64,000 bases of DNA from Rhodococcoides fascians A25f (GTDB taxonomy: Bacteria > Actinomycetota > Actinomycetes > Mycobacteriales > Mycobacteriaceae). Positions 23,187 through 40,333 of this stretch are shown piece after piece; within the stretch, counting starts at the first letter, position 1; each line of letters opens with the position of its first letter. The notes under the pieces are model-generated. The model saw only the letters and a list, made by a program, of their open reading frames with translations. It was not told the DNA's origin and did not search any database. The position numbers and the translations under genes were made by a program. The DNA lies in assembly GCF_000760935.2 (NCBI RefSeq), contig NZ_CP049744.1:1894501-1958500 (forward strand), written 5' to 3'.

Positions 23187-24479
23187 TCAGAAGGCGGCGA
23201 GGTTCTCGCGGAACGTGGTTCGGGAGTATCCGTCGCGAATTGCTCCGCGTCGACGCAGTGCGGGAGCGAGACCGTCACTGATCTCGGAGATGACCTTGCG
23301 AGTAACGGGGGATGCGATGAGGAATCCGTCGCCGCCGACGAACTCCATTGCCTCCACCATCTTTTCGGCCACGGTTTCGGCCGTTCCGACGAGTTCCATG
23401 GATTCGGTCGTCGGGTAGTTGGCGACGATCTCGCGCAAAGTCTTGCCGGTTTTCGCCATGTCCGCCAACGTGCTCTGGTGCCCGTTGTACTGGGTCAGAT
23501 CCGGTACCGGTGCGTCGATGTCGAATTGCGAGAAGTCGGTGCTGCTGAAGTAGGACATCGCGGAGAGTATGCCGTCGATGTTGTTCTTCTGGACTTCGCG
23601 CATCCGGTCGCGCTTCACGGCGGCCTCGTCGTCGGTGTCGGCCATGATGGGACTCACCAGGAACAGCACTTTCACGTCGTCCGGCTTACGACCGTACTCG
23701 ACCAACCGTCGGCTGATGTCCTCTCGGTACTCCTTCATCGCGTCGAGTCCGCGGACGTTGGCGATGATGGTGTCCGCGTGTTTTGCACCGAATGCGCGGC
23801 CGGCGGCAGAGCCCCCTGCCTGGCAGATCACCGGGCGCCCCTGGGGACTGCGCGGAACGTTCAGCGGGCCTCTCGACGAGTAGTACTCACCCTCGAAGTC
23901 GATCCGATGGATCTTCTGGTGATCGGCGAACACTCCGGACTCCGGGTCGAGGACAAGAGCATCCTCGTCCCACGAATCCCACAACTGCGAGACGACGTCG
24001 ACCCATTCGTCGGCCATCTCGTATCTGAGATCGTGCTCGATCTGTTTGGGCAATCCGTAGTTCTGCGCGGCTCCGTCGGCGCTCGCGGTGACGAGGTTGA
24101 TCCCGACGCGGCCCTTGGTCACATGATCGAGGGTCGACATCAATCGTGCGGCGAGAAACGGTGGGTAGAACGTCGTTGCGACGGTGGCGATGATGCCGAT
24201 TCGTTCGGTGGCGTCGGCCATCAGTGGGACGAGTGGCATCGGGTCGAAACGCACGGTGGTCCCGCGTCGAACCGAGCTCTCGAAGGTTCCGCGGTACACG
24301 TCGGACAACACCGAGGAATCCTCGAGCATGATGTAGTCGAACCCGGCGCGCTCCAGGCTCTTTGCCGCATCGACGAACAGATCGGGGCGACCGATGTCCG
24401 ACGCCACGTTGCCCGACCACGGTTGGTTCCAGCCGTAGACTCCGAATCCGGTGGTGAAGAACCACCCGAGGTGCATCAT
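23187..24479 (-). CDS. NtaA/SnaA/DszA-family FMNH2 monooxygenase, paralogue 1
   Basis: A 430-residue group C flavin monooxygenase. The family opening MMHLGWFFTTGFGVYGWNQP, LERAGFDYIMLEDSS and TFYPPFLAARLMSTLDHV, then GRVGINLVT (NLVT rather than the GWN-VVT of most neighbours) and PVICQAGGSAAGRAFGAKHAD define it. It lies upstream of the FMN reductase-ribBA operon on the same strand and opposite to the other six paralogues. The ATGATG start has no Shine-Dalgarno but overlaps the stop of a short upstream ORF that has a good one, so translation is probably coupled. Substrate unknown; organosulfur is likely by context. Confidence 0.9.
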   Translation of the reverse strand: MMHLGWFFTTGFGVYGWNQPWSGNVASDIGRPDLFVDAAKSLERAGFDYIMLEDSSVLSDVYRGTFESSVRRGTTVRFDPMPLVPLMADATERIGIIATVATTFYPPFLAARLMSTLDHVTKGRVGINLVTASADGAAQNYGLPKQIEHDLRYEMADEWVDVVSQLWDSWDEDALVLDPESGVFADHQKIHRIDFEGEYYSSRGPLNVPRSPQGRPVICQAGGSAAGRAFGAKHADTIIANVRGLDAMKEYREDISRRLVEYGRKPDDVKVLFLVSPIMADTDDEAAVKRDRMREVQKNNIDGILSAMSYFSSTDFSQFDIDAPVPDLTQYNGHQSTLADMAKTGKTLREIVANYPTTESMELVGTAETVAEKMVEAMEFVGGDGFLIASPVTRKVISEISDGLAPALRRRGAIRDGYSRTTFRENLAAF

Positions 24480-24556
24480 CGGGCAACGCCCGAGTGGAGT
24501 CGATCGGTGGACAACTGCGTCGGCTCGACGCTGTCGGCGGAAGCGTGCTCGTTCAT
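24476..24556 (-). CDS. Possible 26-residue upstream ORF coupled to monooxygenase 1
   Basis: A short reading frame starting MNEHASADSVEP, preceded at proper spacing by gagagga, ends in a TGA embedded in the monooxygenase ATGATG start. The downstream gene lacks its own ribosome site, so reinitiation from this peptide is plausible. It has no cysteine run or other attenuator signature and may serve only to deliver ribosomes. Confidence 0.4.
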   Translation of the reverse strand: MNEHASADSVEPTQLSTDRLHSGVAR

Positions 24557-24638
24557 GCCAATCCTCTCGTGACGGTGGGCAACTCATCGGTTGCTCATGA
24601 ACGAAGCCTGCTGCAACGGGATTACTCAACGTGGCGCA

Positions 24639-24660
24639 GGCGTAAATGAGTTATTACGCC
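24639..24660. promoter_or_regulatory. Operator-like palindrome GGCGTAA-N8-TTACGCC, copy 1
   Basis: Perfect seven-base arms separated by eight bases, in the 341-base divergent region between the monooxygenase-1 leader ORF and the ABC importer operon. The same arms and spacing recur at 24791. Further half-site-like words (ataacgccg, gttacc, GGCGTTAATAAAGTTACGG at 24748-24766) lie between the two. The element probably binds a dimeric regulator acting on both divergent promoters. Confidence 0.7.
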
Positions 24661-24790
24661 GCGAACAACCGCTGCTCGAGCGGTTTGTCGGTTCCGATAA
24701 CGCCGCTCGATGCCGGCGTGCAGGGTTACCGAGACCTACGTCACTACGGCGTTAATAAAGTTACGGTGGCTCTGACCAGCGGATTCAGGC

Positions 24791-24812
24791 GGCGTAATAC
24801 TTCAGTTACGCC
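24791..24812. promoter_or_regulatory. Operator-like palindrome GGCGTAA-N8-TTACGCC, copy 2
   Basis: Identical arms and spacing to the element at 24639, with an unrelated spacer (TACTTCAG), so conservation is in the arms only, as expected of a protein site. It lies 85 bases before the start of the importer ATPase gene. The centres of the two sites are 152 bases apart. Confidence 0.7.
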
Positions 24813-24897
24813 GGAGGTCGCTTTCAGTAATGCGTGTCGAGAAAGCTGTGCGAACAAGCAGCAGATCTGCTGGAGACAACCGGCTTGGAGGATCTTG

Positions 24898-25725
24898 ATG
24901 AGTGGCAATTCGCGCACTGCGTACGCCGAGATCGACGTCGAACACCTGGGCAAGAGTTTCGATCGCACGGGATCCAGCACACCGGCTGTCGACGACATCG
25001 ACATGACGATCACGTCGAGTTCGGCAATCGGAATCGTCGGTGAGTCGGGATCCGGCAAGTCGACGTTGGTTCGGATGATGTGCGGGCTGCTCTCGCCGAC
25101 GACGGGTTCCGTGCGATACAACGGAGCCGAACTGAACGGTGTGCTGTCCTCGAAGGCAGGCAGGCGTGAATTCCGGTCGAAGGTGCAGTATGTCGCGCAG
25201 GACACGACATCGTCCTTCGATCCACGCCGAACACTGCGTGATGCGGTACGACTACCTGCCCTCCGGCTTCTCGGGATGGACACCAAGGCCGCAGACGCAC
25301 GAGTGGACGAGACATTGGAGTCCCTCGAAATTCACCCCTCGATGGCGGACCGGTATCCCTCGGAGGTCTCAGGAGGTCAACGGCAGCGTTTCTCGATAGC
25401 CCGGGCCTTGGTCGTTCGGCCCCGGATATTGCTGTGCGACGAGGTGGTGTCCGCGTTGGACGTCTCGGTTCAGGGCGCGATCCTGAACATGCTTCGTCGG
25501 TACTGCATCGAATCGGAGTGCGGACTGGTCTTCGTCTCGCACGGGCTCCCCGCAACAGCCTTCATCGCGCGCGACCTGGTCGTCATGCGGAACGGAGTCG
25601 TCGTCGAGCACGGCAGCACCGACGATGTCGTCGAGCGACCGCAGGACCCTTACACGGCGGAGCTGCTCGACGCGTACCGCGGTGACGAGGCAGTCGAGCA
25701 ACTCGCCGTGGCGGCTGCGCGATGA
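24898..25725 (+). CDS. Peptide/nickel-type ABC importer ATPase (DppF-like)
   Basis: A 275-residue ATPase with Walker A GESGSGKST, Q-loop YVAQDTTSSFDPRRT, signature VSGGQRQRFSIARAL, Walker B ILLCDEVVSALD and the oligopeptide-ABC tail PQDPYTAELLDAY. ATG 24898 follows ggagg at ideal spacing; the longer upstream frame crosses the operator region and is not coding. It is first of the ATPase-permease-permease-binding protein operon and overlaps the next gene (ATGA). The second ATPase that such importers need is not here but at 41.5 kb. Confidence 0.92.
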   Translation: MSGNSRTAYAEIDVEHLGKSFDRTGSSTPAVDDIDMTITSSSAIGIVGESGSGKSTLVRMMCGLLSPTTGSVRYNGAELNGVLSSKAGRREFRSKVQYVAQDTTSSFDPRRTLRDAVRLPALRLLGMDTKAADARVDETLESLEIHPSMADRYPSEVSGGQRQRFSIARALVVRPRILLCDEVVSALDVSVQGAILNMLRRYCIESECGLVFVSHGLPATAFIARDLVVMRNGVVVEHGSTDDVVERPQDPYTAELLDAYRGDEAVEQLAVAAAR

Positions 25726-26765
25726 AGACATTTCTCGGACGTCAACGGTGGTGGCTCGGCCGAGTGGCCGTCCTACCGCTGCATCTGCTGGTCTTCGCGG
25801 TCGCCGCGTTCTTCCTGGTACGCGCTATCCCGGGTGACCCGGCCCGCGAAGTGGTCGGTCCCGAAGCCACCGAAGCCGACTATCTGGCGACGAAGGCCGA
25901 ACTCGGTCTCGACGGCAGCCTGTGGTCTCAGTTGATGTCGTATCTGAGCGACCTGCTGCACTTCGACCTCGGCAACGCGATCATGACCGGCAGGCCGGTG
26001 ACAACCGATATCGCAGACCGGCTACCGGGCATGCTCGAACTCGCAGGAATTGCGTTCTTGTTTCTCCTGGCGATCACCTTGCTGCTGTCGGCAGTAGTCG
26101 TCTCCCGGCCCAGATCCATTGCTGCGCGGGCTGTTCGCGGTTACGCCCAGGCAGCCGGAGCCGTTCCGGAATTCGTCGTCGGAGTGGTCGGAATCTTCCT
26201 GTTCTACGCCACGCTGCAGGTGGTTCCCGCCCCTACCGGCCGAGTGCGGGCCGGACTGACCGAACCCGAGCCGCTCACCTCGTTCCCGCTGCTCGACGCG
26301 ATTCTGCGGGGAGACACCGTTGTGGTGTCCTCGATGGTCTCGCACCTGCTGCTCCCGATCGCTGTGCTGGTGCTCTCGGTCACCCCGATTCTGCTCAAAC
26401 AGCTTCTGACAGCTCTCGATTCGAGTCTCACCGCGCAACCGACGATGTTCAAGATCGCCACCGGCTCGGCCCGCAAGTACATCTATGCAAGTGCGTACCG
26501 GCGAGCATTGCCGCCGACCGTCGCGTTGTTCGGCATGGTCTTCGGTTCTCTACTCGGCGGTGCGGTCATCCTCGAGACCCTGTTCGGCCTCGGCGGCATG
26601 GGCCGATACGCCGTCGAGGCAGTCGCGGCGACGGATTTGATTGCGCTGCAGGGGTTCCTGCTCGTCGTCGCTGCAATCTCGCTGATCGTGTTCCTGTGTG
26701 TCGATCTCGTCAACATGTTGCTCGACCCGCGGCGCAAGCCGGGCCGAGCAGGAGGTGGTTCCTGA
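25722..26765 (+). CDS. Peptide/nickel-type ABC importer permease (DppB-like)
   Basis: A 347-residue permease. The family N-terminus (LPLHLLVFAVAAFFLVRAIPGDPAREVVGPEA) is followed by about six helices and the EAA-type loop ending in ILETLFGLGGMGRYAVEAV. It pairs with the DppC-like permease downstream to form the channel. It overlaps both neighbours: ATGA with the ATPase gene and TGATG with the next permease. Sequence gives no substrate; the DppB/OppB class also moves nickel, glutathione and sulfur compounds. Confidence 0.92.
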   Translation: MKTFLGRQRWWLGRVAVLPLHLLVFAVAAFFLVRAIPGDPAREVVGPEATEADYLATKAELGLDGSLWSQLMSYLSDLLHFDLGNAIMTGRPVTTDIADRLPGMLELAGIAFLFLLAITLLLSAVVVSRPRSIAARAVRGYAQAAGAVPEFVVGVVGIFLFYATLQVVPAPTGRVRAGLTEPEPLTSFPLLDAILRGDTVVVSSMVSHLLLPIAVLVLSVTPILLKQLLTALDSSLTAQPTMFKIATGSARKYIYASAYRRALPPTVALFGMVFGSLLGGAVILETLFGLGGMGRYAVEAVAATDLIALQGFLLVVAAISLIVFLCVDLVNMLLDPRRKPGRAGGGS

Positions 26766-27649
26766 TGGTTGCTCTGGTACCGAAGAAAGTCGAGTCCGAT
26801 ACTCGCAGTGCGAGGCCGCCGACACGGAGATCGGTCTCGGTCGGCACAATAGTGCTCTTCGTTCCGCTGGCCCTGATTCTGCTGATAACCCTGATCGGGC
26901 CGTGGATCGTCCCGTTCGATCCGACCAAGGTCGTCGGCGCACCCTCTCTGTCACCGGATTCCGAGTTCCTTCTCGGCACCGACTCCAACGGACTCGACGT
27001 GTTCTCGCGCACCATCGCCGGTGCCCGCATCGACGTGACGATCGCCCTCGCGGTCACGGTTGCCGCAACCGTGGCGGGAATTCTGATCGGTCTCACCATC
27101 GGAATGAACGAGGCAGGCCGCGGACTCGGCGGCTTTCTGGCCCGCGGCGCGGCGCGCTTCCTCGATCTGCTCGAAGCCGTTCCCACAGTGATCGTCGCCT
27201 TGGTTGTCGTGTCGTTCTTCGGAACGTCCTCGATCACCATGATTTTCACGCTCTCGATCATTCTCGCGCCGATTCAGGCGAGGCTCGTCCGCACCGAAGT
27301 ACTACGGGTGCGCGGCGACGCGTATCTCGACGCGGCCCGCCAAGCTGGATTGTCCGAGACGCAACTGGTGTTTCGACACGTGTTGCCCAACTCGTCGGTC
27401 CCCGCGCTGCAGAACGCCTCGGTCGTGTTCGGCATGACGATCATCCTCACCGCAGCGCTCGGCTTCCTCGGTGTCGGTCTGCCGCCGCCCACCCCCGAGT
27501 GGGGATCGATGATCACCCGCGGTGCAGGCGATGCCGCCATGGGAAAGCTGTGGTCGGCAGGCGCTCCCGCGTTCGCGCTGTGTCTGACCGTCGCCTCGGT
27601 GGCGATCGTCGGTCGTAGGTTGACCAAAGGCACCCGCCGCTCCCATTGA
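26765..27649 (+). CDS. Peptide/nickel-type ABC importer permease (DppC-like)
   Basis: A 294-residue permease with the DppC N-terminal extension, LLGTDSNGLDVFSRTIAGARIDV (family GTDxxGRDxxSR motif) and the EAA loop YLDAARQAGLSETQLVFRHVLPNS. It ends with GVGLPPPTPEWGSMI, typical of the family. ATG 26765 overlaps the upstream stop. A 134-base gap with a good gaaggagaac site precedes the binding-protein gene. Confidence 0.92.
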   Translation: MVALVPKKVESDTRSARPPTRRSVSVGTIVLFVPLALILLITLIGPWIVPFDPTKVVGAPSLSPDSEFLLGTDSNGLDVFSRTIAGARIDVTIALAVTVAATVAGILIGLTIGMNEAGRGLGGFLARGAARFLDLLEAVPTVIVALVVVSFFGTSSITMIFTLSIILAPIQARLVRTEVLRVRGDAYLDAARQAGLSETQLVFRHVLPNSSVPALQNASVVFGMTIILTAALGFLGVGLPPPTPEWGSMITRGAGDAAMGKLWSAGAPAFALCLTVASVAIVGRRLTKGTRRSH

Positions 27650-27783: not shown

Positions 27784-29439
27784 GTGAAAACCTCTCATCG
27801 TCTTTCCATCGGACTCAGGTGGACGGTCCCGTTGCTCGTCGGTGCCCTCGCGTTGAGTGCCTGTTCGGACGGCGGAACCGAGTCCTCGGCGTCGACCCCC
27901 GGCGAAATCGTCGTGGTGACACCGGATCAGGCGTCGAATGTGGTGCGCGACTACGGCTACACCGCAGGCACCGACAATCAGGACGTCACCAACAATATGC
28001 ACGCCCAGCTGATTCGCAAGCCGTACGTCGAGGAGGACGGCTCGGATGCACTGGTGCAGGACTTCTACAATTTCGAGCCGTACCTGGCGGAGAGCTACGA
28101 GGTCAGCCCCGACCAGCTCGTCTACACCTTCTCCCTGAAGCAGGGCGTGATGAGTGCGCACGGCAACGAGCTCGACGCCGACGACGTGCTGTGGTCCTTC
28201 GAGCGCAAGTTCGCCACCCCGGGTGGCGGTATGGCCGGCTATTACAAGCCGATGTTGACCGACCCGGCAACCCAGATCACGAAGGTCGACGACTACACCG
28301 TCAGTTTCACGGTGGAGAAGGCCGGCTACGGACTGACGCTGTTGGCCAACCTGGCCGAGAACATCGGGTCGATCTACGACAGCAACTACCTCATCGAGAA
28401 CGCCACTCCCGAGGACCCGTACGCCGTCGCGTGGGGTGCCGAGGACATGATGCGCGGCAACTTCGGTTACGGCGCATACATGTTGGAGTCCGTCACTCCC
28501 GGCCAGGAGATCGTCATGACGGCGAACCCCAACTTCGTTCTCGGTGAGCCCGAGGTGAAGCGCATGATCCGACGCGTCGTGGCCGACCCCGCGACGAGAG
28601 CGAACATGGTCACCCGCGGCGACGCAGATGTCGCGCTGGCGTTGCGCTCGTCGGACCAGGCCACGCTGGAGAGCAACGACGCGGTGACCGTCCCGACGAC
28701 GACTTCGAATCAGTACCTGCTGTTCTCGATGAACACCACCACTGCGCCGTTCGACGACGTGCGCGTTCGCCAGGCGATGGCATACGCGATCCCGTACGAC
28801 CAGATCATGTCCGACGTCTTCTTCGGCAGGGCATACAAGTACAACCACGTACTCGACGACAAGGCACCGAACTGGGACGGGAGCGATCTTCCCCAGTACG
28901 ACAGCGACCCCGAGCGAGCCAAGTCGCTGCTGGCGGAGGCCGGCTTGACCGATGGTCTTGCGTTCACCCTCAGCGTCAACAATCAGCTTCCGGCGGCGCA
29001 GGACACGGCGATTCAGATCCAGTCGTTCGCGGCCGAAGCGGGCATCGACGTCACGATCGCGGAAGTGCCTGCAGCGCAGCTCAATGCCGACACCTTGGCC
29101 GGAAAGGTGCAGGCCAGCCTCAGCATCGGTGCATCGGTGACGATGACTCCGCCGTACTCGCTGCAGTTGCTCACCCAGCCGGGTGGCGGCTCCAATATCG
29201 CGCTGTGGAACGACCCCGAGTTCCTCGCGATGGTGGACCAAGGGCTCGATGCCGGTGATGCACTGAGCCCCGAGGCCGGAGTGTTCTGGAATCAGGCAGA
29301 GCTCCGCATGACCGAGCAGGCACCCTACATCTTCATCGCCAGGGTACGGCCCTCGGTGGCCCTCGACGCCGGCATCGGCGGGTTCGTACAGCGCACCGAT
29401 TTCCGGATCGACTACTCCAATCTGACGCTCGGTTCGTAG
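27784..29439 (+). CDS. Family 5 extracellular solute-binding lipoprotein (DppA-like)
   Basis: A 551-residue SBP_bac_5 protein. The signal peptide ends in lipobox LSAC, so it is lipid-anchored outside the membrane. Family signs are YVEEDGSDALVQDFYNFEPYLAESYEV, the LKQGVMSAHGNELDADDVLWSF motif and FDDVRVRQAMAYAIPYDQI. The GTG start has gaaggag upstream. It captures the ligand for the adjacent permeases. Genes for three monooxygenases follow, so the cargo is probably their substrate or a class of substrates. Confidence 0.93.
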   Translation: MKTSHRLSIGLRWTVPLLVGALALSACSDGGTESSASTPGEIVVVTPDQASNVVRDYGYTAGTDNQDVTNNMHAQLIRKPYVEEDGSDALVQDFYNFEPYLAESYEVSPDQLVYTFSLKQGVMSAHGNELDADDVLWSFERKFATPGGGMAGYYKPMLTDPATQITKVDDYTVSFTVEKAGYGLTLLANLAENIGSIYDSNYLIENATPEDPYAVAWGAEDMMRGNFGYGAYMLESVTPGQEIVMTANPNFVLGEPEVKRMIRRVVADPATRANMVTRGDADVALALRSSDQATLESNDAVTVPTTTSNQYLLFSMNTTTAPFDDVRVRQAMAYAIPYDQIMSDVFFGRAYKYNHVLDDKAPNWDGSDLPQYDSDPERAKSLLAEAGLTDGLAFTLSVNNQLPAAQDTAIQIQSFAAEAGIDVTIAEVPAAQLNADTLAGKVQASLSIGASVTMTPPYSLQLLTQPGGGSNIALWNDPEFLAMVDQGLDAGDALSPEAGVFWNQAELRMTEQAPYIFIARVRPSVALDAGIGGFVQRTDFRIDYSNLTLGS

Positions 29440-29454
29440 AGCGCACTCCCGCAG

Positions 29455-29497
29455 GCAGTTCGGTCGGTGGTCATATCGGGCTTCCCGACCGAACTGC
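29455..29497 (+). terminator. 13-bp hairpin after the binding-protein gene
   Basis: Perfect arms GCAGTTCGGTCGG (29455-29467) and CCGACCGAACTGC (29485-29497) flank a 17-base loop, 16 bases past the stop. It may terminate, or attenuate, the importer operon before the monooxygenase run, allowing different expression levels. No T-tract follows. Confidence 0.55.
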
Positions 29498-29616: not shown

Positions 29617-30930
29617 GTGACCATGACAGACAACAGATTTCATCTCGGTTGGTTCGGCAGCTTCGTACCGACGTCCTGGAACACCGCGTTCGAGGGTTCC
29701 GACAGTGGAGACTGGTTGAACGGAGATTTCTACGTCGACTTCGCCAAGACCCTCGAGCGCGCGTGCTTCGACTTCCTGCTCCTCGAGGATTCGTCGATGG
29801 TCTCCGATACCTACGGCGGCAGTTCGGAAGCGACCCTGAAGACCGGCGGGTGGGCACCGAAAGGTGATCCGATGGCATTGGCTCCCTTGCTCACCCGGGC
29901 CACCAGTCATCTCGGTATCGCCTTGACCGCATCGACGTCCTTCTATCCGCCCTATCTTCTCGCACGCTCGATCTCGTCGCTCGATCACCTGTCCTCGGGT
30001 CGTATCGGGTGGAACGTAGTGACCTCGAGCGAGGATCGTGCAGCCCAGAACTTCGGTATGGACGCGCTACCCCCGCACGACGAGCGCTACGTGCGCGCTG
30101 ACGAGTACGTGGAACTGGTCGAGAAGCTCTGGGACTCGTGGGATGCCGATGCTGTGGTGATGGACCGCGCAACGTCCACCTATGTCGACCACACCAAGGT
30201 CCACACCATCGACTTCCAGGGTAAGTACTACTCCTCACGCGGGCCGCTCAACACTCTGCCGTCACCGCAGGGGCGACCGGTCATCACGCAGGCGGGCGGC
30301 TCGCCTGCCGGCCGCGACTTCGCGGCCAAGCATGCGGACATGATCATGGCGCTGCCCAAAGGTGTTGCAGCGATGAAGGAGTACCGGTCCGACATCAGGC
30401 GCCGGATGGCACTACACGGCCGCGATCCCGATTCGGCGAAGGTGATGTACGTGGTCTCGCCCATCCTCGGTGAGACCCACGAGGATGCGCTTGCGCGTAA
30501 GGATCGCAAGGCGGCGGCGGTTCGAGCCAATCCTGCGGGTGTGCTCATCGGCTGGTCGGCGAGCATGGAGATCGACTTCTCCACGTTCGATCTCGACAAG
30601 CCGATGCCCGAGGACGTGCACACCAACGGACATCAGTCCACGTTGGAGAACTTCCGCAACTGGGCCGACGGTCGAACGCTCCGCGAGGCCTGCGTGGCCT
30701 ACCGAACCGAATCGATGGAGCTGGTCGGTACACCGGATGCTGTTGCCGCGCAGATGGGCGACGCCATGGCAGAGGTCGGCGGGGATGGCTTCTTGATCTG
30801 GAGCCAGCCGCACAACCGGCGGTACATCGGTGAGATCGCAGACGGACTCGTGCCCGCTCTACAGAGCCGAGGTCTGATGCGGACCGAGTACAGCAGCGAT
30901 CATCTGCGCGACAACCTGCTCGAATTCTGA
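29617..30930 (+). CDS. NtaA/SnaA/DszA-family FMNH2 monooxygenase, paralogue 2
   Basis: A 437-residue LLM-type monooxygenase: NRFHLGWFGSFVPTSWN opening, LERACFDFLLLEDSSMVSDTYGG, TSFYPPYLLARSISSLDHL, SGRIGWNVVTSSEDRAAQNFG and PVITQAGGSPAGRDFAAKHAD. It uses reduced FMN and O2 to attack an imported compound. The GTG at 29617 is favoured because gagga lies about seven bases upstream; the ATG at 29623 is too far. It is first of the six-gene monooxygenase run on this strand and, judged by shared stretches, most like paralogues 5 and 7. Confidence 0.9.
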   Translation: MTMTDNRFHLGWFGSFVPTSWNTAFEGSDSGDWLNGDFYVDFAKTLERACFDFLLLEDSSMVSDTYGGSSEATLKTGGWAPKGDPMALAPLLTRATSHLGIALTASTSFYPPYLLARSISSLDHLSSGRIGWNVVTSSEDRAAQNFGMDALPPHDERYVRADEYVELVEKLWDSWDADAVVMDRATSTYVDHTKVHTIDFQGKYYSSRGPLNTLPSPQGRPVITQAGGSPAGRDFAAKHADMIMALPKGVAAMKEYRSDIRRRMALHGRDPDSAKVMYVVSPILGETHEDALARKDRKAAAVRANPAGVLIGWSASMEIDFSTFDLDKPMPEDVHTNGHQSTLENFRNWADGRTLREACVAYRTESMELVGTPDAVAAQMGDAMAEVGGDGFLIWSQPHNRRYIGEIADGLVPALQSRGLMRTEYSSDHLRDNLLEF

Positions 30931-32313: not shown

Positions 32314-33603
32314 ATGTTCCACCTTGGTTGGTTCTTGAGCTGGCAGGTGCAGTCGTGGAACCAGATGTGGTCGGGGGAGGGCGGCACCGAATGGAACCAC
32401 CCCGAGCTGTACATCGACATGACTCGATCGCTCGAACGTGCCGGATTCGACTACATCATGTTCGAGGACGGTTCGTTCGTCCCGGACTCGTTCGGTGGTT
32501 CGTCCGAGTGGTGGCTGGCCAATGCGCGGTCGGTGCCCAAGCAGGACCCGAACTCGTTGCTTCCCATTCTGAGTCAGCACACCGAGCGTCTCGGCCTCAT
32601 CGCCACGATGACGACGTCGTTCCATCCGCCGTACATGGCGGCCCGCACGGCAGCCACGCTCGACCACCTCAGTAACGGGCGCGCCGGGGTCAATCTGGTG
32701 ACCTCGCACAACGTGCGCACGGCACAGAACTTCGGCTACGAGGAAATGTTCGAGCACGATCATCGGTACGAGATGGCCGACGAGTGGATCGACCTCGTCA
32801 AGCAACTGTGGTCCTCGTGGGAGCCGGACGCAGTGCGCCTAGACCGAGAAGCGGGCGTTTTCGCGGATTTCGCCAAGGTCCACAACATCGATTTCAAGGG
32901 CAAGTACCACTCGTCCCGCGGACCGCTGAACACCACTCCGACGCCGCAGGGCCGACCGGTGATCTGCCAGGCCGGCGGTTCTCCTGCAGGCCGCGGCTTC
33001 GCCGCCAAACACGCCGAAACCATTCTGGCTCAGGTCGAGAGCGTCGAGGCCATGAAGACGTACCGCGACGACGTCCGTGCCCGCATGATCGTGGAGGGGC
33101 GGGACCCAGATTCGTGCAAGATCATGTTCATCGTCAGCCCGGTACTCGGTGAGACTCAGCAAGAAGCGCAGGACAAGAACGAGCGGATCCTCGACGGCTT
33201 CCGCAACAACATCGACGTCAATCTGGCCTCGATGTCCTATGCGAGCGGTATCGACTTCTCGAAATTCGATCTGGACGCGCCGATTCCCACCGTCGAGACC
33301 AATGCGGGCCGGGGAACGATGGCCCTGATCGGTGCCAACACCACCGGGATGACACTGCGCGAGGCGGCGAGCTCGGACATCAGGAAGTCCGTGCAACTGA
33401 TCGGCACAGCCGACGCGGTGGCGGAGCAGATGGGTGATATCGCGGCCGAGGTCGGCGGTGACGGTTTCCTCATCGCAGGAAGCGTGAACCGGCGGTACAT
33501 CAGTGAGATCGCCGATGGTCTGGCGCCCGAGCTGCGTAAGCGTGGACTGATTCGTGACGGATATGCGCACGAACTGTTCCGCGACAACCTGATGGACTTC
33601 TGA
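32314..33603 (+). CDS. NtaA/SnaA/DszA-family FMNH2 monooxygenase, paralogue 4
   Basis: A 429-residue monooxygenase, MFHLGWFLSWQVQSWNQMWSG opening, LERAGFDYIMFEDGSFVPDSFGG (EDG instead of EDS), TSFHPPYMAARTAATLDHL and GRAGVNLVTSHNVRTAQNFG. It shares the NLVT variant with paralogue 1 and reads TSFHPP rather than SFYPP, marking a separate subgroup. PVICQAGGSPAGRGFAAKHAE is conserved. An aagaggagaag site precedes the ATG. Probably cotranscribed with neighbours (37- and 32-base gaps). Confidence 0.9.
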   Translation: MFHLGWFLSWQVQSWNQMWSGEGGTEWNHPELYIDMTRSLERAGFDYIMFEDGSFVPDSFGGSSEWWLANARSVPKQDPNSLLPILSQHTERLGLIATMTTSFHPPYMAARTAATLDHLSNGRAGVNLVTSHNVRTAQNFGYEEMFEHDHRYEMADEWIDLVKQLWSSWEPDAVRLDREAGVFADFAKVHNIDFKGKYHSSRGPLNTTPTPQGRPVICQAGGSPAGRGFAAKHAETILAQVESVEAMKTYRDDVRARMIVEGRDPDSCKIMFIVSPVLGETQQEAQDKNERILDGFRNNIDVNLASMSYASGIDFSKFDLDAPIPTVETNAGRGTMALIGANTTGMTLREAASSDIRKSVQLIGTADAVAEQMGDIAAEVGGDGFLIAGSVNRRYISEIADGLAPELRKRGLIRDGYAHELFRDNLMDF

Positions 33604-33635: not shown

Positions 33636-35123
33636 GTGCGACCCGACTCGTATCCCTGGCGCGTGCTGTCGGTCACCGGACTCGGGATGAGCATCACGTT
33701 CGTATCGGTGTCGATGCTCCCCGTCGCTCTACCGGACATGAGTGCGGGACTCGGAGCCTCTGCAGCGCAAACCGATTGGTTCATACTCGCGTACCTGCTC
33801 ACCACGGCAGTGTTCATTCTGGTGCTCGGCAAACTCGCCGATCTTGTCGGACGCCGACCGGTGTATCTCGCAGGCTTGGCCTGTCTGACAGTCAGTGCCG
33901 CGGTGATCGCGTCGGCGACGGACCCCGACATCGTGATCGGCTTACGCGTCGTGCAGGGCATCGGCGCGGCGGCAGTGATCACCAACACCACTGCGCTTCT
34001 CGTCGAAGCGTTCGAGCCGCAGAAGCTCTCGATCGGTATCGGCTGGAACATCACGATCATGTCGCTCGCCATCTCTGTCGGACCGTTGCTCGGTGGCGTT
34101 CTGACCGAAACCGTCGGGTGGCGTGGGGTGTTCGGAATCGTGGTTCCGCTGGGCGTTGTCGGGACGGTCTGGGCATGGATCACCCTGCGCCGCACACCAC
34201 GTCCGACGGCCGGGGCACCCTTGGACTACGGCGGTGCGCTGGGCTCGATGGTCATCCTCGGTGGCCTGGTCTACGGGGTGAATCGCGGTGGCAGTGGCGG
34301 TTTCGGAGCGTGGCAGTCGGTGGTACCGCTGGCGTGCGTCGTGGTCGCTGTGCCGCTGTTCTGGTGGTGGGAGAAGCGAGCCGCAGATCCGATCGTGGAT
34401 CCGAAACTGCTGGCGGACAGATTCCGCGGCAGTGCCTACACCGCATCGTTCCTGGTGACGATGGCGGAAGGCGCGGTGGCCGTGACCATGTCGCTCTACC
34501 TGCAGAGTGTCGTGGGCTCGAGTCCCATCGACGCCGGATTGCAGATCACCGCACTTGCCGTCGGCACCACCGTGATGTCGCCGATCGCGGGCACGCTGGC
34601 CACGCGGGTATCGACGCGGACGTTGACGACGGTGTCCACGCTCGGCACCGCAACGGTGCTGTCGGTACTCGCCCTGCACATCGCGGGGCCGGCCCGGGAC
34701 GTTCCCATCGTTGCCCTGCTGTTCGCTCTCGGTCTCAGTGGCGGGATCTTCAAGACGGCAAATGCGTCGGCGATCAACGTGGGCGTGGCACCGAACCGTT
34801 CGGGAATGGCCAACGGACTTCGGGTGTCCCTCGACAACACTGCAGTCACCCTCAGCACAGCGCTCGCCCTGGTGCTCGCAGTGTCTGCACTTCCGCCGAC
34901 GCTGCGTGAATTGGTGTACTCCGGCGACAGCGACATGTTGCCGGACGGCGGATCCGATTCGTTGACATCGGGATTCGTCATCGCCGTGGCCGCCATGGCA
35001 TTCGCAGCGCTACTGGCGAGCGTGGCGTCGGGCCTGCGCGGAATCCATCCGAAGGAACCTGCCGAGCTGTCTCGGCTGCACAGAAGTGATCTACCCACAT
35101 CGAGAGCAAGGAGCACGGCATGA
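33636..35123 (+). CDS. MFS transporter, DHA2 (EmrB/QacA) family
   Basis: A 495-residue, 14-helix major facilitator exporter. Motif A reads GKLADLVGRRPVYLAG, and motif C-like sequence occurs in ISVGPLLGGVLTETVGWRGVF. It starts at GTG 33636; no better upstream codon exists, and the ATG at 33690 would delete helix 1. The stop overlaps paralogue 5's ATG (ATGA). Within an oxidation cluster it may expel a desulfurised carbon skeleton or toxic product rather than import substrate; direction is inferred from the family. Confidence 0.9.
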   Translation: MRPDSYPWRVLSVTGLGMSITFVSVSMLPVALPDMSAGLGASAAQTDWFILAYLLTTAVFILVLGKLADLVGRRPVYLAGLACLTVSAAVIASATDPDIVIGLRVVQGIGAAAVITNTTALLVEAFEPQKLSIGIGWNITIMSLAISVGPLLGGVLTETVGWRGVFGIVVPLGVVGTVWAWITLRRTPRPTAGAPLDYGGALGSMVILGGLVYGVNRGGSGGFGAWQSVVPLACVVVAVPLFWWWEKRAADPIVDPKLLADRFRGSAYTASFLVTMAEGAVAVTMSLYLQSVVGSSPIDAGLQITALAVGTTVMSPIAGTLATRVSTRTLTTVSTLGTATVLSVLALHIAGPARDVPIVALLFALGLSGGIFKTANASAINVGVAPNRSGMANGLRVSLDNTAVTLSTALALVLAVSALPPTLRELVYSGDSDMLPDGGSDSLTSGFVIAVAAMAFAALLASVASGLRGIHPKEPAELSRLHRSDLPTSRARSTA

Positions 35124-36409
35124 CCAAATTTCATCTGGGGTGGTTCACCAACTTCTCCAACCCGCCGTGGAACACCACCTGGGCCGGCGACGAAGGCAGG
35201 ACGTGGGCCAACGGCGAATTGCACGTCGACTTCGCCCGGTCACTCGAGCGAGCCTGCTTCGACTACATCATGCTCGAGGATTCGTCGATGGTCTCCGACG
35301 CCTTCGAGCAGACGTCGAGGGTGGACCTGAAGTACGGACTGTATGCGCCCAAACACGATCCGGTGACGCTGGTTCCGATGCTGACTGCGTCGACGAAGCA
35401 CATCGGCATCATCGCAACGTGCTCGACGTCCTTCTACCCGCCGTGGTTGCTCGCTCGACGGTTCTCCACCCTCGATCACCTCAGCGGCGGGCGCGTCGGC
35501 TGGAACGTTGTGACCTCCAGCGAGGACCGCGCCGCGCAGAACTACGGCATGGACAAGCTGGCCGAACACGACCAACGGTACGAGCGCGCCGACGAGTTCG
35601 TCGATCTCGTCAAGCAGTTGTGGGCTTCGTGGGAGGAGGACGCGATGGTCCTCGATAGGGACACCGGCACGTACGTCGATCACACGAAGGTCCATGTCAC
35701 GAACTTTCGCGGCAAGTACCACGCATCGCGCGGACCGCTGAATCTGCCGCGGTCACCGCAGGGCGAACCGGTGATCTGTCAGGCCGGTGGATCGCCGCGG
35801 GGTCGCGAATTCGCGGCGCGCAACGCGGAAACCATTCTCAGCGCGGCCAAGGACCCGGCCGCGATGAAGGCGTTCCGCGACGACATCCGAATGCGGATGG
35901 AGAAGGAGGGCCGCGATCCGGACAGCTGCAAGATCATGTTCATCACCCAGCCCGTGCTGGCGGATACCGAATCCGACGCGCGCGCCAAGGTGGAGCGCAT
36001 GACCGCCGACGTCGATTCACGCATCGAGTCGGCGCTGGGCCATATTTCGGCGCTGACCGAAATCGATCTGTCGACGTACGAACTGGACGAGGAGTTCCCC
36101 GAACTCTCCACCAACGGACACCGGACGACGCTCGGCGACTTCCTGTCCTACGGCAATACGCCGCGCAAAGCGGCACTGGGCTGGTCCATGAAGAACGTGC
36201 ACTACGTCGGCACCCCTGACTCTGTTGCCGAGCAGATGGGCGAGACGATGGACTTCGTCGGTGGTGACGGATTCCTGATCACCGGGAGCATCGGCCGACG
36301 CTACGTCGGCGAGATCACCGAAGGCCTCGTCCCCGCGCTGCAACGACGCGGCCTCGTCCGTACCGAATACGAGCACGACATGTTTCGTGAGAATCTCATG
36401 TCCTTCTGA
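35120..36409 (+). CDS. NtaA/SnaA/DszA-family FMNH2 monooxygenase, paralogue 5
   Basis: A 429-residue monooxygenase, TKFHLGWFTNFSNPPWNTTWAG opening, LERACFDYIMLEDSSMVSDAFEQ, TSFYPPWLLARRFSTLDHL, GRVGWNVVTSSEDRAAQNYG and PVICQAGGSPRGREFAARNAE. The ATG overlaps the preceding MFS stop, and the stop overlaps the next MFS start (TGATG), giving an MFS-monooxygenase-MFS sandwich under translational coupling. The SPRGRxFAARNA variant is shared with paralogue 7. Confidence 0.9.
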   Translation: MTKFHLGWFTNFSNPPWNTTWAGDEGRTWANGELHVDFARSLERACFDYIMLEDSSMVSDAFEQTSRVDLKYGLYAPKHDPVTLVPMLTASTKHIGIIATCSTSFYPPWLLARRFSTLDHLSGGRVGWNVVTSSEDRAAQNYGMDKLAEHDQRYERADEFVDLVKQLWASWEEDAMVLDRDTGTYVDHTKVHVTNFRGKYHASRGPLNLPRSPQGEPVICQAGGSPRGREFAARNAETILSAAKDPAAMKAFRDDIRMRMEKEGRDPDSCKIMFITQPVLADTESDARAKVERMTADVDSRIESALGHISALTEIDLSTYELDEEFPELSTNGHRTTLGDFLSYGNTPRKAALGWSMKNVHYVGTPDSVAEQMGETMDFVGGDGFLITGSIGRRYVGEITEGLVPALQRRGLVRTEYEHDMFRENLMSF

Positions 36410-37848
36410 TGCGGTTGCTACGCAGAGACTCGGTGGTACCGGGCCCGGTGTACGCGTTGGCCTTCGTCAACGTGTGCATCGGTCTCGGCTACGGCGTTGT
36501 GGCTCCGGTCATTCCGGTCTTCGCCAGAGACTTCGGGGTGTCCGATCTGGCGGCCTCGTCGGTGGTGAGCATCTACGCGTTCACCCGAGTGTTGGCGTCG
36601 TTCGGTGCATCCCGTCTGCTGATGAGGTTCGACGAACGCACGATCCTCACCGCGGGACTGCTGCTGGCCGCAACATCCTCGCTGGCAGCAGCATTCGCTC
36701 CGACGTTTCTGTCACTGTTGTTGCTCCGGGCCGTCGGCGGCGTCGGAACAGCGATGTTCACCGTGGCCGGGCAGCAGCTACTCTTCCGCTACAGCAGCCC
36801 GGAAACCGGAGGCAGAACTGCGTCCGTCTTCCAGTCCGGCTTCCTCATCGGCGGGGTACTGGGCCCGGTGATCGGCGGTGCGGTCGCTCTCGTCTCGCTT
36901 CGGGCACCGTTCCTCACCCACGCACTGACGCTGATCGTCGGGGTCGCCGTCGTCTGGTTCGCGTTCCGATCCAGTGACAAGAAGGACGCCGCAAACGGTG
37001 TCGCGCACGATACGACAACACGACCGGAGCCGATGACGCTGCGAAGTGCGCTCGGCCACCGTGGATTCCGTGCGTCGATCGCGTCGAACTTCGCCAACGG
37101 CTGGGTCGGCAACGGGGTGCGGTTCACCCTCATCCCGCTGTTCGTCGCGACGGTGATCGGCGGCAGCCCCTTCGTCTCGGGGTTGGTTCTCGTCGTCGGC
37201 GCCGTCGTGCAGATCGTCGTCGTGAAACCTGCGGGCAAACTCGTCGACAGCTGGGGTCGACGGCCCATGCTGGCCTTCGGATCCGGTCTGATTCTGCTCG
37301 GGATCGTCGTTCTCGCCCTCGTTCCGACTCTGCCGATCCTGGTGCTGACGATGGTGCTGTGGGGAGTGGGCGGCACGTGCGCCATGGTGGCGAGCGCTGC
37401 GACCGTCGGCGACGTGCTGGCGGGGCGAGGCGGCAGTCCCATTGCGGTGTACCAGGTCACGTTCGATGTCGGCACCATGCTCGGCCCGCTCGTCGCCGGT
37501 GCCGTCATCGCTCAGGCGTCCTACTCTCTCGCCTTCACCGCCTGCATCCCCGTCGCGGCGTTGGCCGTCATACTGGCACTTCGGCCGTGGCGGACCGTCG
37601 CCGTGTCGACCCCCGAATCGAAGGTGGTCGTCACCGAGGAATCCGCCGTCCCTGCCCCGACCATTCACGACCACCACTTTGGAAAAGAGGACCGATGTCA
37701 CAACCGTTCACTCTCGGTTGGTTCACCAACTACCTCGTCCCCGACTGGACCGGACCCTATGCCGGAACCGGTGGAACAGACTGGGCCGACGGAACTTTCG
37801 CTGTCGACGTCGTGCGCGCGCTCGAGCGAGCGGGAATCGACTTCGTGA
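36409..37848 (+). CDS. MFS transporter, 12-helix DHA1-like, with overlapping tail
   Basis: A 479-residue major facilitator protein: YALAFVNVCIGLGYGVVAPVIPVFARDFG opening, about 12 helices to near residue 410, then a hydrophilic tail. The last roughly 51 residues are encoded within the first 154 bases of paralogue 6 in another frame and look like shadow coding (Ser/Thr/Pro/Glu rich). No frame offers a stop before the next gene, so no simple frameshift explains it. The functional transporter probably ends near residue 415, and the tail is a by-product of a lost stop. Confidence 0.88.
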   Translation: MRLLRRDSVVPGPVYALAFVNVCIGLGYGVVAPVIPVFARDFGVSDLAASSVVSIYAFTRVLASFGASRLLMRFDERTILTAGLLLAATSSLAAAFAPTFLSLLLLRAVGGVGTAMFTVAGQQLLFRYSSPETGGRTASVFQSGFLIGGVLGPVIGGAVALVSLRAPFLTHALTLIVGVAVVWFAFRSSDKKDAANGVAHDTTTRPEPMTLRSALGHRGFRASIASNFANGWVGNGVRFTLIPLFVATVIGGSPFVSGLVLVVGAVVQIVVVKPAGKLVDSWGRRPMLAFGSGLILLGIVVLALVPTLPILVLTMVLWGVGGTCAMVASAATVGDVLAGRGGSPIAVYQVTFDVGTMLGPLVAGAVIAQASYSLAFTACIPVAALAVILALRPWRTVAVSTPESKVVVTEESAVPAPTIHDHHFGKEDRCHNRSLSVGSPTTSSPTGPDPMPEPVEQTGPTELSLSTSCARSSERESTS

Positions 37849-39008
37849 TGCTGGAGGATTCGACCGCGCTGACCGATATCTACGGCGGCACGTTCGAGTC
37901 CGAACTGAAATGGACGCCCCGGGCACCGAAGCACGACCCGATGGCACTGGCCTCGCGCCTGGCGTACGAGACCGACCGAATCGGCATCGTCGTCACCGCG
38001 TCCACGAGTTTCTACCCGCCGTTCTTGCTCACCCGGCTGCTGTCGACCCTCGACCACCTCAGTCGCGGACGGATGGGGTGGAACATCGTCACCTCGACCG
38101 GGGACCGAGCGGCACAGAACTTCGGCAAGGACACGCTGCCGACCCACGATGCCAGGTACGAGATCGCCGAGGAATTCGTCGACGTCGCGAATCAGCTGTG
38201 GGCGTCCTGGGACGCCGATGCCGCATCCCCGATCGGCCCCGGCCTCGAGTCCTACGTGGACCACACCAAGGTCAGAACCATCGATCACGTCGGCGAGCAC
38301 TTCTCGGTCCGCGGCCCGCTCAACACCCTGCCGAGTCCGCAGGGCAAGCCGGTGCTGTGCCAAGCGGGAGCGTCGAAGTCCGGGATCGATCTCGCGGCGC
38401 GAGTCGCCGATCTTGTTGTCGCCGCGCCGAAGGGGCGAGACGCAATGCGCGAGTACCGAAACACGGTGCGGGCCCGTGCCGCAGAATTCGGACGCAACCC
38501 CGACGACATCAAGGTTCTCTACATGGTGACGCCGATTCTGGGGGAGACCGAGGACGACGCGAAGCGCAAGGCCGAGCGCTACTACCAGGCGACCGATGCC
38601 GCCATCGCACGCCGGCTGATCATGCTGTCCGGGGACATCGACTTCTCGACATTCGATGTTGACCAACCGATTCCGGACGACCTGAAGACCGAGGGGAGCA
38701 CCAGCATTCTGGACAACCTGCAGAAATGGGCGAACGGCAGGTCGATTCGCGAGACCGTGGCCACGGAACGTACAGAATCGTTGCGGCTCGTCGGCACATC
38801 GGCCGCTGTGGCAGACGAGATGGAAAGTGTGATCGACGAAGTCGGCGGGGACGGCTTCCTGTTCTTCGGAGGTGGCGGTGGAGTGCTCAATCGTCGGTAC
38901 GTCGACGACGTGTGCGACGGGCTGATGCCCGAACTCGCACGACGGGGCGTCGCAGGCACCGGATACCGTGGTGGCAATCTCCGTGAGCACCTGGCAGGTG
39001 CCCGATGA
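37695..39008 (+). CDS. NtaA/SnaA/DszA-family FMNH2 monooxygenase, paralogue 6
   Basis: A 437-residue monooxygenase and the most divergent of the set: QPFTLGWFTNYLVPDWTGPYAG (TLGWF for HLGWF), LERAGIDFVMLEDSTALTDIYGG, TSFYPPFLLTRLLSTLDHL and GRMGWNIVTSTGDRAAQNFG. PVLCQAGASKSGIDLAARVAD lacks the usual QAGGSxxGR, and a glycine-rich insert FFGGGGGVLNRRYV appears near the C-terminus. aagagga lies before the ATG, inside the coding tail of the preceding MFS gene. It overlaps paralogue 7 (ATGA). Confidence 0.9.
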   Translation: MSQPFTLGWFTNYLVPDWTGPYAGTGGTDWADGTFAVDVVRALERAGIDFVMLEDSTALTDIYGGTFESELKWTPRAPKHDPMALASRLAYETDRIGIVVTASTSFYPPFLLTRLLSTLDHLSRGRMGWNIVTSTGDRAAQNFGKDTLPTHDARYEIAEEFVDVANQLWASWDADAASPIGPGLESYVDHTKVRTIDHVGEHFSVRGPLNTLPSPQGKPVLCQAGASKSGIDLAARVADLVVAAPKGRDAMREYRNTVRARAAEFGRNPDDIKVLYMVTPILGETEDDAKRKAERYYQATDAAIARRLIMLSGDIDFSTFDVDQPIPDDLKTEGSTSILDNLQKWANGRSIRETVATERTESLRLVGTSAAVADEMESVIDEVGGDGFLFFGGGGGVLNRRYVDDVCDGLMPELARRGVAGTGYRGGNLREHLAGAR

Positions 39009-40333
39009 GTACACCGCGCATGCATCTGGGCTGGTTCACCAGCTTTCGTCCACCGGTGTGGAGCTCGCACTGGACCGGATCCGATTCCGATTCCTGGGCG
39101 GACGGGCGTTTTCACGTCGAGATGGCCCAGGCGCTCGAGCGTGCAGGGTTCGATTATCTGATGCTCGAGGATTCGTCCATGGTGTCCGACATCTACGGCG
39201 GCACGACGGAGTTCGATCTGGCGAAGGCGCAGTATGCGCCGAAGCACGATCCGGTCGCACTGGTGCCGATGTTGGCCGCGGCAACGTCGAGACTCGGGAT
39301 CGTGACCACGATGTCCACCAGCTTCTACCCGCCCTACCTGCTGGCGCGGGTGGTGTCGACTCTCGATCACATGTCCCACGGACGGGTGGGGTGGAACGTG
39401 GTGACGTCGAGTGAGGACCGCGCCGCCCAGAACTTCGGCATGGACGCACTGCCGCCACACGACGAACGGTACGAGCGCGCCGAGGAATTCGTCGAGGCAG
39501 TCGACGCGCTCTGGAAGTCGTGGGAACCCGACGCGCTGATGATGGACAAGGCATCGAACACCTACGTCGATCACACCAAGGTGCACGACGCGAATTACGT
39601 CGGCAAGTTCCACCGCACGCGTGGGCCGCTCAACACGCTGCCGATGCCCCAGGGCAGGCCGGTGATCTGCCAGGCCGGTGGATCTCCGCGCGGACGCGCA
39701 TTCGCCGCTCGCAATGCCGACACCATCATCTGCCAGGCTCAGGGCATCGAGGCGATGAAGGCCTATCGCGAGGACGTTCGGGCGATGGCCTCGGACGCAG
39801 GCCGCGATCCGGATTCGATCAAGATTCTCTACATCGTGTCCCCGGTGCTGGGTGAGACCGACCGCGAAGCTCGCGAACTCGATGAGCGGTCTCGCGAGGC
39901 CACCGATGGACGTGTGCACGCTGCGCTGGCGCATATTTCCGCGGTGACAGGCAACGACCTGTCGACGATGGACATCGATGCCCCGCCACCGGAGCTGACG
40001 ACCAACGGTCACCGTACGACGCTCGCAGATTTTCTCGCGGGTTCGGGTAGCAGCAAGTTCAACGAGGACGGAACTCCGAAGACGTTGCGCCAGTTGGCTG
40101 CCACGTGGTCGATCACGTCGGTGCCGCTGGTGGGCACGCCCGACACCGTGGCCGCACAGATGGAGGACGTCATCGATGCTGTCGGTGGTGACGGCTTCCT
40201 GATGACCGGTCGGCTCGGGCGTCGGTATTACACCGAGGTAACCGACGGGCTGGTGCCTGCTTTGCGTCGCCGCGGATTGGTACGAGATACGTATGCATAC
40301 AAGCAGTTCCGCGACAATCTGCTGGACTTCTGA
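39005..40333 (+). CDS. NtaA/SnaA/DszA-family FMNH2 monooxygenase, paralogue 7
   Basis: A 442-residue monooxygenase: RMHLGWFTSFRPPVWSSHWTG, LERAGFDYLMLEDSSMVSDIYGG, TSFYPPYLLARVVSTLDHM, GRVGWNVVTSSEDRAAQNFG and PVICQAGGSPRGRAFAARNAD. It carries a short insert (AGSGSSKFNEDGTPKTLRQL, about 343-362) absent from the others. It is the last gene of the run and is followed at once by a perfect convergent terminator. Closest by eye to paralogues 2 and 5. Confidence 0.9.
   Translation: MSTPRMHLGWFTSFRPPVWSSHWTGSDSDSWADGRFHVEMAQALERAGFDYLMLEDSSMVSDIYGGTTEFDLAKAQYAPKHDPVALVPMLAAATSRLGIVTTMSTSFYPPYLLARVVSTLDHMSHGRVGWNVVTSSEDRAAQNFGMDALPPHDERYERAEEFVEAVDALWKSWEPDALMMDKASNTYVDHTKVHDANYVGKFHRTRGPLNTLPMPQGRPVICQAGGSPRGRAFAARNADTIICQAQGIEAMKAYREDVRAMASDAGRDPDSIKILYIVSPVLGETDREARELDERSREATDGRVHAALAHISAVTGNDLSTMDIDAPPPELTTNGHRTTLADFLAGSGSSKFNEDGTPKTLRQLAATWSITSVPLVGTPDTVAAQMEDVIDAVGGDGFLMTGRLGRRYYTEVTDGLVPALRRRGLVRDTYAYKQFRDNLLDF

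Follow-up and report, generated by a model that had tools for sequence, protein, structure and literature searches.

The window analysed here is a 64,000-nucleotide stretch (C1:1894501-1958500) of the 5.89-Mb genome of Rhodococcoides fascians A25f, a plant- and soil-associated bacterium. It holds a conserved array of seven genes for monooxygenases predicted to use flavin mononucleotide (FMN), here called LLM1 to LLM7, together with an importer, flavin-supply genes, two transporters of the major facilitator superfamily (MFS) and a regulator. A preliminary description of positions 23187-40333 had recorded seven paralogous monooxygenases, two interleaved MFS genes, two FMN reductases and a RibBA gene, all of which are present, the monooxygenases as full-length and intact open reading frames (ORFs) above the TIGR03860 cut-off. 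The regulator it mentioned is a GntR/UTRA protein encoded outside that interval, and the ATP-binding cassette (ABC) importer it placed at the flank is also present, though it is of the oligopeptide/dipeptide (Opp/Dpp) type and not sulfonate-type, with five genes (OppFBCA...OppD) of which the fifth lies beyond 23187-40333. From left to right, the order is ssuCBAD (+); RibBA, the PF01613 reductase, the SsuE-like reductase and LLM1 (all -); a divergent gap; OppF-OppB-OppC-OppA-LLM2-LLM3-LLM4-MFS1-LLM5-MFS2-LLM6-LLM7 (+); GntR/UTRA (-); a second divergent gap; and OppD (+).

16985..20780, +, ssuCBAD sulfonate module, a neighbour and in our judgement not a constant array component
20802..22028, -, extra RibBA, riboflavin precursor synthesis (second copy at C1:3015248)
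22028..22525, -, flavin reductase, HsaB/HpaC/RutF-like (PF01613)
22522..23028, -, SsuE-like NAD(P)H FMN reductase, 3' of LLM1 (PF03358)
23187..24479, -, LLM1, TIGR03860 monooxygenase, transcribed away from the importer operon (403 bits with a longer start scanned; trees)
24639..24660, no strand, operator-like palindrome site 1, GGCGTAA-N8-TTACGCC (genome pattern search and alignment)
24791..24812, no strand, operator-like palindrome site 2, GGCGTAA-N8-TTACGCC (genome pattern search and alignment)
24898..25725, +, OppF-type ATPase
25722..26765, +, OppB-type permease
26762..27649, +, OppC-type permease, start uncertain
27784..29439, +, OppA/DppA-type substrate-binding lipoprotein
29623..30930, +, LLM2 (TIGR03860, 419 bits)
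30963..32276, +, LLM3 (TIGR03860, 405 bits)
32314..33603, +, LLM4 (TIGR03860, 398 bits)
33636..35123, +, MFS1, DHA2/EmrB-like transporter
35120..36409, +, LLM5 (TIGR03860, 419 bits)
36409..37848, +, MFS2, ORF end overlapping LLM6
37695..39008, +, LLM6 (TIGR03860, 383 bits)
39005..40333, +, LLM7 (TIGR03860, 410 bits)
40377..41228, -, GntR/UTRA (HutC/PhnF-type) regulator (PF00392 and PF07702 above cut-off)
41409..41430, no strand, operator-like site 3 between GntR and OppD, core GCGTAA-N8-TTAC (three mismatches)
41508..42425, +, OppD-type ATPase, the fifth gene of the importer, located at the array's distal end

Three of the starts were refined (LLM1 to 24479, LLM2 to 29623, LLM6 to an ATG at 37695). 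As the genes from LLM2 to LLM7 either overlap, by 154 bases in the case of the MFS2 ORF and LLM6, or are separated by at most some tens of bases, they are likely to form one transcript.

The array is real and conserved. LLM2-LLM7, the importer and the GntR gene are syntenic in 7/7 other Rhodococcus/Rhodococcoides loci fetched (L007-L013), and the closest matches to LLM5 come from Rhodococcus sp. 06-462-5 and IEGM 1381 (both 100%), R. kyotonense (96%) and R. fascians A44A (94%). Its spread is patchy, with OppA orthologues of at least 87% identity in 9/37 genomes of the genus, the own genome included (44% matches occur in two more), and the array is therefore accessory. LLM2-like proteins were similarly rare, being found in 7/150 genomes of the order at E ≤ 1e-90 and in 3/396 genomes of the phylum at E ≤ 1e-115, again counting the own genome. 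In Pseudonocardia kujensis (L014) the order is OppA-LLM2-(LLM)-LLM3-LLM4-MFS1-(LLM)-LLM5-MFS2, with two monooxygenase genes inserted, and comparable clusters of Opp, monooxygenase and GntR genes occur in Nocardia (L023), Cryobacterium (L018 and L042), Frondihabitans (L020), a member of the Microbacteriaceae (L019) and Pseudonocardia pini (L028). In R. trifolii, LLM1 has been relocated to the opposite end of the array. The ssu module named in the preliminary description does adjoin the array, but among nine syntenic genomes it does so only in the window and three close relatives and is absent there in the other five; we do not regard it as a constant component of the array.

A separate clade of monooxygenases

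All seven proteins pass the curated cut-off of the TIGR03860 (NtaA/DmoA) family (279.7 bits) at 383-419 bits, and share 42-60% pairwise identity. They fail the equivalog tests for SsuD (TIGR03565, cut-off 518.2; 60-73 bits), SfnG (TIGR04021, cut-off 382.95; 65-85 bits) and RutA (TIGR03612, cut-off 498.3; 63-82 bits), which excludes an SsuD identity. The genome as a whole has 50 PF00296 matches and at least 27 listed TIGR03860 matches (23 of 53 first-look candidates were scored). The motif differences reported earlier are real: five of the proteins carry GWN(V/I)VT, with GINLVT in LLM1 and GVNLVT in LLM4, while FYPP is FYHP in LLM3 and FHPP in LLM4. The reported loss of QAGGS in the sixth corresponds to QAGAS in LLM6, and we rejected its reading as a meaningful loss of a family motif, since the same stretch is QAGLS in BdsA and QAGSS in YtnJ.

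In a 109-row tree, all seven fell inside one 90-row clade (Shimodaira–Hasegawa-like approximate likelihood ratio test 100, stem 0.74), and a careful tree of a 63-row subset recovered this clade with 47 rows and support of 100/100. The rows came from 43 loci, the seven LLMs and seven references (BdsA, YtnJ, 7e36 chain B, RcaE, HcbA1, LadA and DmoA), all of which lay outside the clade; SeuA-C and a characterised NtaA were not among the references. Proteins outside 380-500 residues (for example, the 760-residue ORF in Hansschlegelia L038:9023-11305 that reads as an ABC ATPase joined to a clade monooxygenase), short alignments and an SsuD-like protein from L082 were dropped, and several of the remaining rows are long-branched and of unsure placement. 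On these trees the clade is a branch in which no characterised enzyme was found, and no study of the array or the clade was found among the open PubMed Central papers that the searches retrieved. LLM1 to LLM6 have well-supported orthologues or near-orthologues in other genera, while those of LLM7 are weakly supported. Recent tandem duplication was rejected as an origin, LLM2, 3, 4 and 5 being orthologous to genes of Pseudonocardia L014 and LLM1 to genes of L020/L042, and the tree thus indicates that the paralogues are old. Ratios of non-synonymous to synonymous substitution (dN/dS) were 0.003-0.118 across all seven genes in five comparisons each, estimated by a simple counting method with synonymous sites partly saturated. 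The seven genes are under strong purifying selection, and a reading as decaying pseudogenes was rejected on these ratios.

The functional label 'DszA-type' used in the preliminary description does not hold. DszA and BdsA resemble the LLMs in TIGR03860-type sequence and length and in the FMN-site residues V137, H156, R159 and Y160 (BdsA positions as given in PMC5819316, here and below), which are present in all seven; across the clade, V137, R159 and Y160 occur in 90/90 rows and H156 in 77/90. However, BdsA is excluded from the clade at 100/100, and of its substrate residues F12 alone is kept, with H20, F56, F246, V248 and H316 replaced or gapped in all seven. The references differ among themselves at most of these columns, F56 being common to all of them, and the V372 column, a gap in the seven LLMs, says little because it is also gapped in most references. 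A WR(H/N) stretch of the references is W(N/T/S) in the seven, and an F-x-x-D stretch is E-D. No DszB or DszC companion was found among the array genes scanned.

Comparison with PDB sequences covered LLM1, LLM6 and LLM7, for which BdsA, YtnJ, DmoA and others scored near level. BdsA (214-271 bits) was the nearest relative of two of the three, while the best match of LLM6 was 3sdo, and EmoA (129-158 bits) was the lowest among full-length TIGR03860-type matches. At least 7826 relatives of LLM7 were found at E ≤ 1e-20 among 8000 candidates scored, and the named ones among the best 120 are called dibenzothiophene desulfurization enzyme A, nitrilotriacetate monooxygenase family or long-chain alkane monooxygenase. 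These database names refer to enzymes with which the clade does not group here.

An eighth clade member of this strain is plasmid-borne (C2:106070-107374, L071) and lies within a 4.75-kb stretch that matches R. fascians pFiD188, next to the fas locus, at 96.7% identity; a related plasmid may therefore be present in the strain. Relatives of DmoA (55%; L068:2461-3852) and HcbA1 (54%; L005:8225-9634) are also encoded in this genome. In the Microbacteriaceae locus, a long-branched monooxygenase beside the Opp/LLM array (L019:1685) groups with the riboflavin lyase RcaE.

Flavin supply and operator-like sites

The genome has two loci for RibBA-type 3,4-dihydroxy-2-butanone 4-phosphate synthase, and the window RibBA is therefore an extra copy, the other being a full-length RibBA with 53% identity. 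The two adjoining reductases could pass FMNH2 in trans to the monooxygenases, and the RibBA-reductase-SsuE module adjoins the array in 5/9 genomes. Genes of the RibB/RibBA, SsuE-like or PF01613 types recur beside clade monooxygenases in Nocardia higoensis and Nocardioides (reductases only) and, among alphaproteobacteria, in Hansschlegelia, Pseudooceanicola, Methylobrevis, Chthonobacter and a Rhizobium metagenome-assembled genome.

The palindrome GGCGTAA-N8-TTACGCC, a candidate shared operator absent from the preliminary description, has exactly two copies in 5.9 Mb of genome. Both lie between LLM1 and OppF (24639 and 24791), and the next-best sites carry two mismatches. The exact copies alone stand out, because at up to two mismatches a reversed-pattern control gave 16 matches per strand against 7 for the pattern. 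Within the window, six sites occurred at up to three mismatches, compared with a shuffled mean of 1.98 (six were reached in 3/100 shuffles); at this threshold the ssu module had no site. Across nine genomes (the window and L089-L096), a site in the LLM1/OppF or SsuE/OppF gap was present in 9/9, and two gap sites with 0-2 mismatches occurred in 8/9, R. trifolii having a single site with one mismatch; the arms of the sites are conserved while the spacers change. In the GntR/OppD gap, an eight-locus alignment that is otherwise variable keeps GCGTAAT-N4-TGTTTAC, with L010 one base off. Among 17 further loci (15 from other genera and two distant clusters from the same genus, with genes called by our own script), the core CGTAA-N8-TTACG at up to two mismatches occurred 27 times in 37.6 kb of intergenic DNA and 10 times in 268.5 kb of genic DNA, a 19-fold difference in density. 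Its intergenic-to-genic ratio of 2.7 was the highest of 60 permuted palindromes, the next being 1.1, although some of the intergenic matches do not adjoin array genes.

The exact palindrome found only twice, its conservation in nine genomes and its intergenic enrichment make the array look like one regulon, and the array is probably co-regulated. The candidate sites common to both gaps would tie the two ends of the array together, and the GntR protein is the natural candidate to bind them. In R. trifolii, OppF and the SsuE-reductase-RibBA module face directly away from each other with an operator-like site between them, an arrangement suggesting common control of the flavin genes and the array. 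Extra RibBA and shared operator-like sites thus bear out the earlier view of an expanded, dedicated array with its own uptake, flavin supply and regulator. The candidate operator, importer and regulator together make the substrates directly testable.

Two further elements were seen in the array's non-coding DNA. A hairpin in the OppA/LLM2 gap (29455-29497), perhaps acting in mRNA stability or attenuation, has a stem that is kept by eye in 7/7 aligned loci showing the gap, with compensatory changes in L010. A terminator-like inverted repeat with 13-bp arms (40342-40376) lies between the convergent LLM7 and GntR genes.

Substrate class and neighbouring genes

The reading that we prefer, and to which we give about an even chance, is that the array is a substrate-responsive scavenging regulon, for nitrogen compounds in preference to organosulfur. 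The Opp/Dpp-type importer would bring in a class of small molecules, the two flavin reductases and the extra RibBA would maintain reduced FMN, and the seven diverged two-component (group C) monooxygenases would cleave carbon-heteroatom bonds with the help of FMNH2 and O2, acting on different compounds of that class. The MFS proteins may move products or substrates, and the GntR/UTRA regulator would repress the array from the GGCGTAA-N8-TTACGCC sites in the LLM1/OppF gap and beside OppD until an inducer is present. Nitrogen compounds would be attacked in the manner of RutA.

Several known systems share parts of this design. The YtnJ/CmoJ and YxeK operons, which salvage S-alkyl- and 2-succino-cysteine in Bacillus, combine a monooxygenase with a dedicated ABC importer, have few monooxygenases and an importer of the amino-acid type, and the ytm operon carries the flavin-related gene ribR. 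These operons sometimes include an M20-type amidohydrolase, as do the relatives L058, L062, L064 and L082, but YtnJ lies outside the clade. Several tandem FMN monooxygenases are also found in an actinobacterium in the SeuABC/SsuD systems of Corynebacterium, whose enzymes act on sulfonates and sulfonate esters.

For attack on nitrogen compounds, a known likeness is the RutA/RutF pyrimidine pathway, a two-component FMN oxygenolysis with a flavin reductase, and PMC7662398 describes flavin-N5-oxide oxygenolysis as common to RutA, DszA and HcbA1. RutA-like monooxygenases occur near clade members in L018 (324 bits), L019 (265) and L038 (385), all below the cut-off of 498. The array itself differs in its low TIGR03612 scores, and none of its genes that were scanned belongs to the rut pathway. 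Many clade monooxygenases have importer genes (Opp, amino-acid or urea/sulfonate type) as neighbours. Urea-type substrate-binding proteins are encoded in Hansschlegelia L038 (535 bits over a cut-off of 334) and Salipiger L081 (383 over 334), the latter with a creatininase (314 over 235). Hydantoinase/carbamoylase-type M20 genes lie near clade members in L056, L058 and L062, DUF1989 genes in L022 and L032, a creatininase-family gene below the equivalog cut-offs in L031, and nitrate- and nitrite-reductase-like genes, below cut-offs, upstream in L054. PMC4617892 reports induction of a Mycobacterium smegmatis DppB gene under nitrogen limitation, which shows only that Dpp-type import can serve nitrogen supply.

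Markers were counted within 6 kb of the monooxygenases at 65 clade loci, including close relatives, and at 21 non-clade loci, the latter made up of nine loci in hand and 12 hand-picked plasmid loci. As the markers were picked after seeing the loci, the counts are partly circular and lean to the side of origin. Sulfur markers were found at 2/65 clade and 7/21 non-clade loci (p = 0.0006), 9/12 of these markers deriving from non-clade loci and three from the window and L082. The loci L089-L091, which also bear ssu, were outside the 65 and would add three same-genus ssu loci. When only best matches to markers from another locus were counted, sulfur markers remained at 0/65 versus 5/21 (L002, L003, L103, L108 and L109), and because these counts point the same way, this caveat leaves our assessment unmoved. 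Nitrogen markers (ureide, amide and nitrate) were found at 14/65 clade loci and 1/21 non-clade loci; L032, L038 and L056 also match the nitrogen marker of another locus at 35-47%.

A number of observations weigh against the nitrogen-scavenging regulon. The nitrogen count does not differ significantly from the control (Fisher p = 0.10), 13/15 of its markers derive from clade loci, with the partial circularity that this brings, and best matches to markers from other loci leave 4/65 (L019, L047, L058 and L082) versus 0/21. Some of the nitrogen-type neighbours lie as far off as 5.8 kb or are encoded on the opposite strand, a non-clade locus (L110) also sits amid hydantoinases, and L054 encodes a flavoprotein over the cut-off for the sulfite reductase alpha subunit. 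Of the named catabolic modules, ssu is the closest one in the window. With respect to flavin, the module is missing from beside the array in 4/9 genomes, an Rfam search of the window gave no match, including none to an FMN riboswitch, and two further BdsA positions are poorly kept: S139 in five LLMs (A in LLM1, G in LLM3), and L230, which contacts FMN through its backbone, as G or A in all seven. We therefore lean only weakly towards C-N over C-S oxygenolysis, and consider nitrogen compounds (cyclic amides, ureides or amines) somewhat more likely substrates than organosulfur.

The organosulfur function proposed in the preliminary description is somewhat weakened, and we regard it as a serious though rather unlikely explanation; when sulfur is limiting, the seven enzymes would release sulfite from sulfonates, sulfones, sulfonate esters or thioethers. 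Such a function would fit the presence of ssuCBAD next to the array in the window and three close relatives, ssuA and ssuD some 6-7 kb from the clade monooxygenase in Marinibacterium (L082), and BdsA as nearest PDB relative of two of three LLMs. At the level of family names, 'nitrilotriacetate monooxygenases' rise on dibenzothiophene in Rhodococcus IGTS8 (PMC8557817) and on non-sulfate sulfur sources in Gordonia NB4-1Y (PMC7661421), and a dibenzothiophene study (PMC11852219) tabulates an NtaA/DmoA-family protein from G. alkanivorans 135. The inductions in IGTS8 and Gordonia NB4-1Y count for organosulfur, although all these proteins are linked to the clade by annotation name. Against this explanation also stand the sulfur-marker counts, partly circular as they are, the lost BdsA substrate residues, and the ssu module itself, absent from beside the array in 5/9 genomes and lacking an operator-like site. 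No SfnB/acyl-CoA-dehydrogenase-type companion was matched within 6 kb of the 65 clade loci.

ABC import together with an FMN reductase is also known from systems for ethylenediaminetetraacetate (EDTA) and nitrilotriacetate (NTA), and the EmoA/NtaA family name is common to the LLMs. Catabolism of chelators such as NTA/EDTA-like polyamino acids, or of herbicides or other xenobiotic carbon sources, would agree with the naming and with Opp/Dpp-type import, as would the primary-amine oxidase genes of an R. erythropolis R138 plasmid, which lie at distances of approximately 1.5 and 8 kb from two clade members. EmoA is a distant match of the three LLMs compared, however, and the best PDB matches of OppA are HbpA/DppA-type, with nickel-binding NikA lower down and otherwise no named chelator binder listed; we consider this improbable. 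More improbable still is a cluster for tailoring or detoxifying specialised metabolites in place of a nutrient regulon. The two MFS genes do resemble drug efflux families, and plasmid relatives lie beside the pFiD188 fas locus and, in Sphingobium, beside cytochrome P450 and cyclohexanone-monooxygenase genes, but no biosynthetic core gene occurs among the array genes scanned, and the five importer genes, RibBA and two reductases, the strong constraint and the patchy but syntenic spread all speak against such a cluster.

A bolder form of the nitrogen-scavenging reading, which is speculative and in our view more probably wrong than right, is that the clade constitutes a new enzyme group, independent of RutA, that opens imported cyclic amides, ureides and other N-heterocycles by RutA-like FMN-peroxide chemistry. 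The array would then serve combinatorial nitrogen scavenging, with one ring per paralogue and one GntR operator across several actinobacterial families. Substrates for the seven enzymes could give a function to an entire branch of group C monooxygenases and explain why a single genome retains all seven.

A second monooxygenase island in the same genome (C1:1129226-1188967; L001-L004) carries Opp-type importers, several non-clade monooxygenases, ssuABC-like genes and an SfnB-like gene (34%); it may be the organosulfur island of this genome and offers a natural contrast to the array. In R. erythropolis R138, genes of the phytanoyl-CoA-dioxygenase family flank a clade monooxygenase, and similar genes lie near the Sphingobium relative (L084:9071-12272 and L080).

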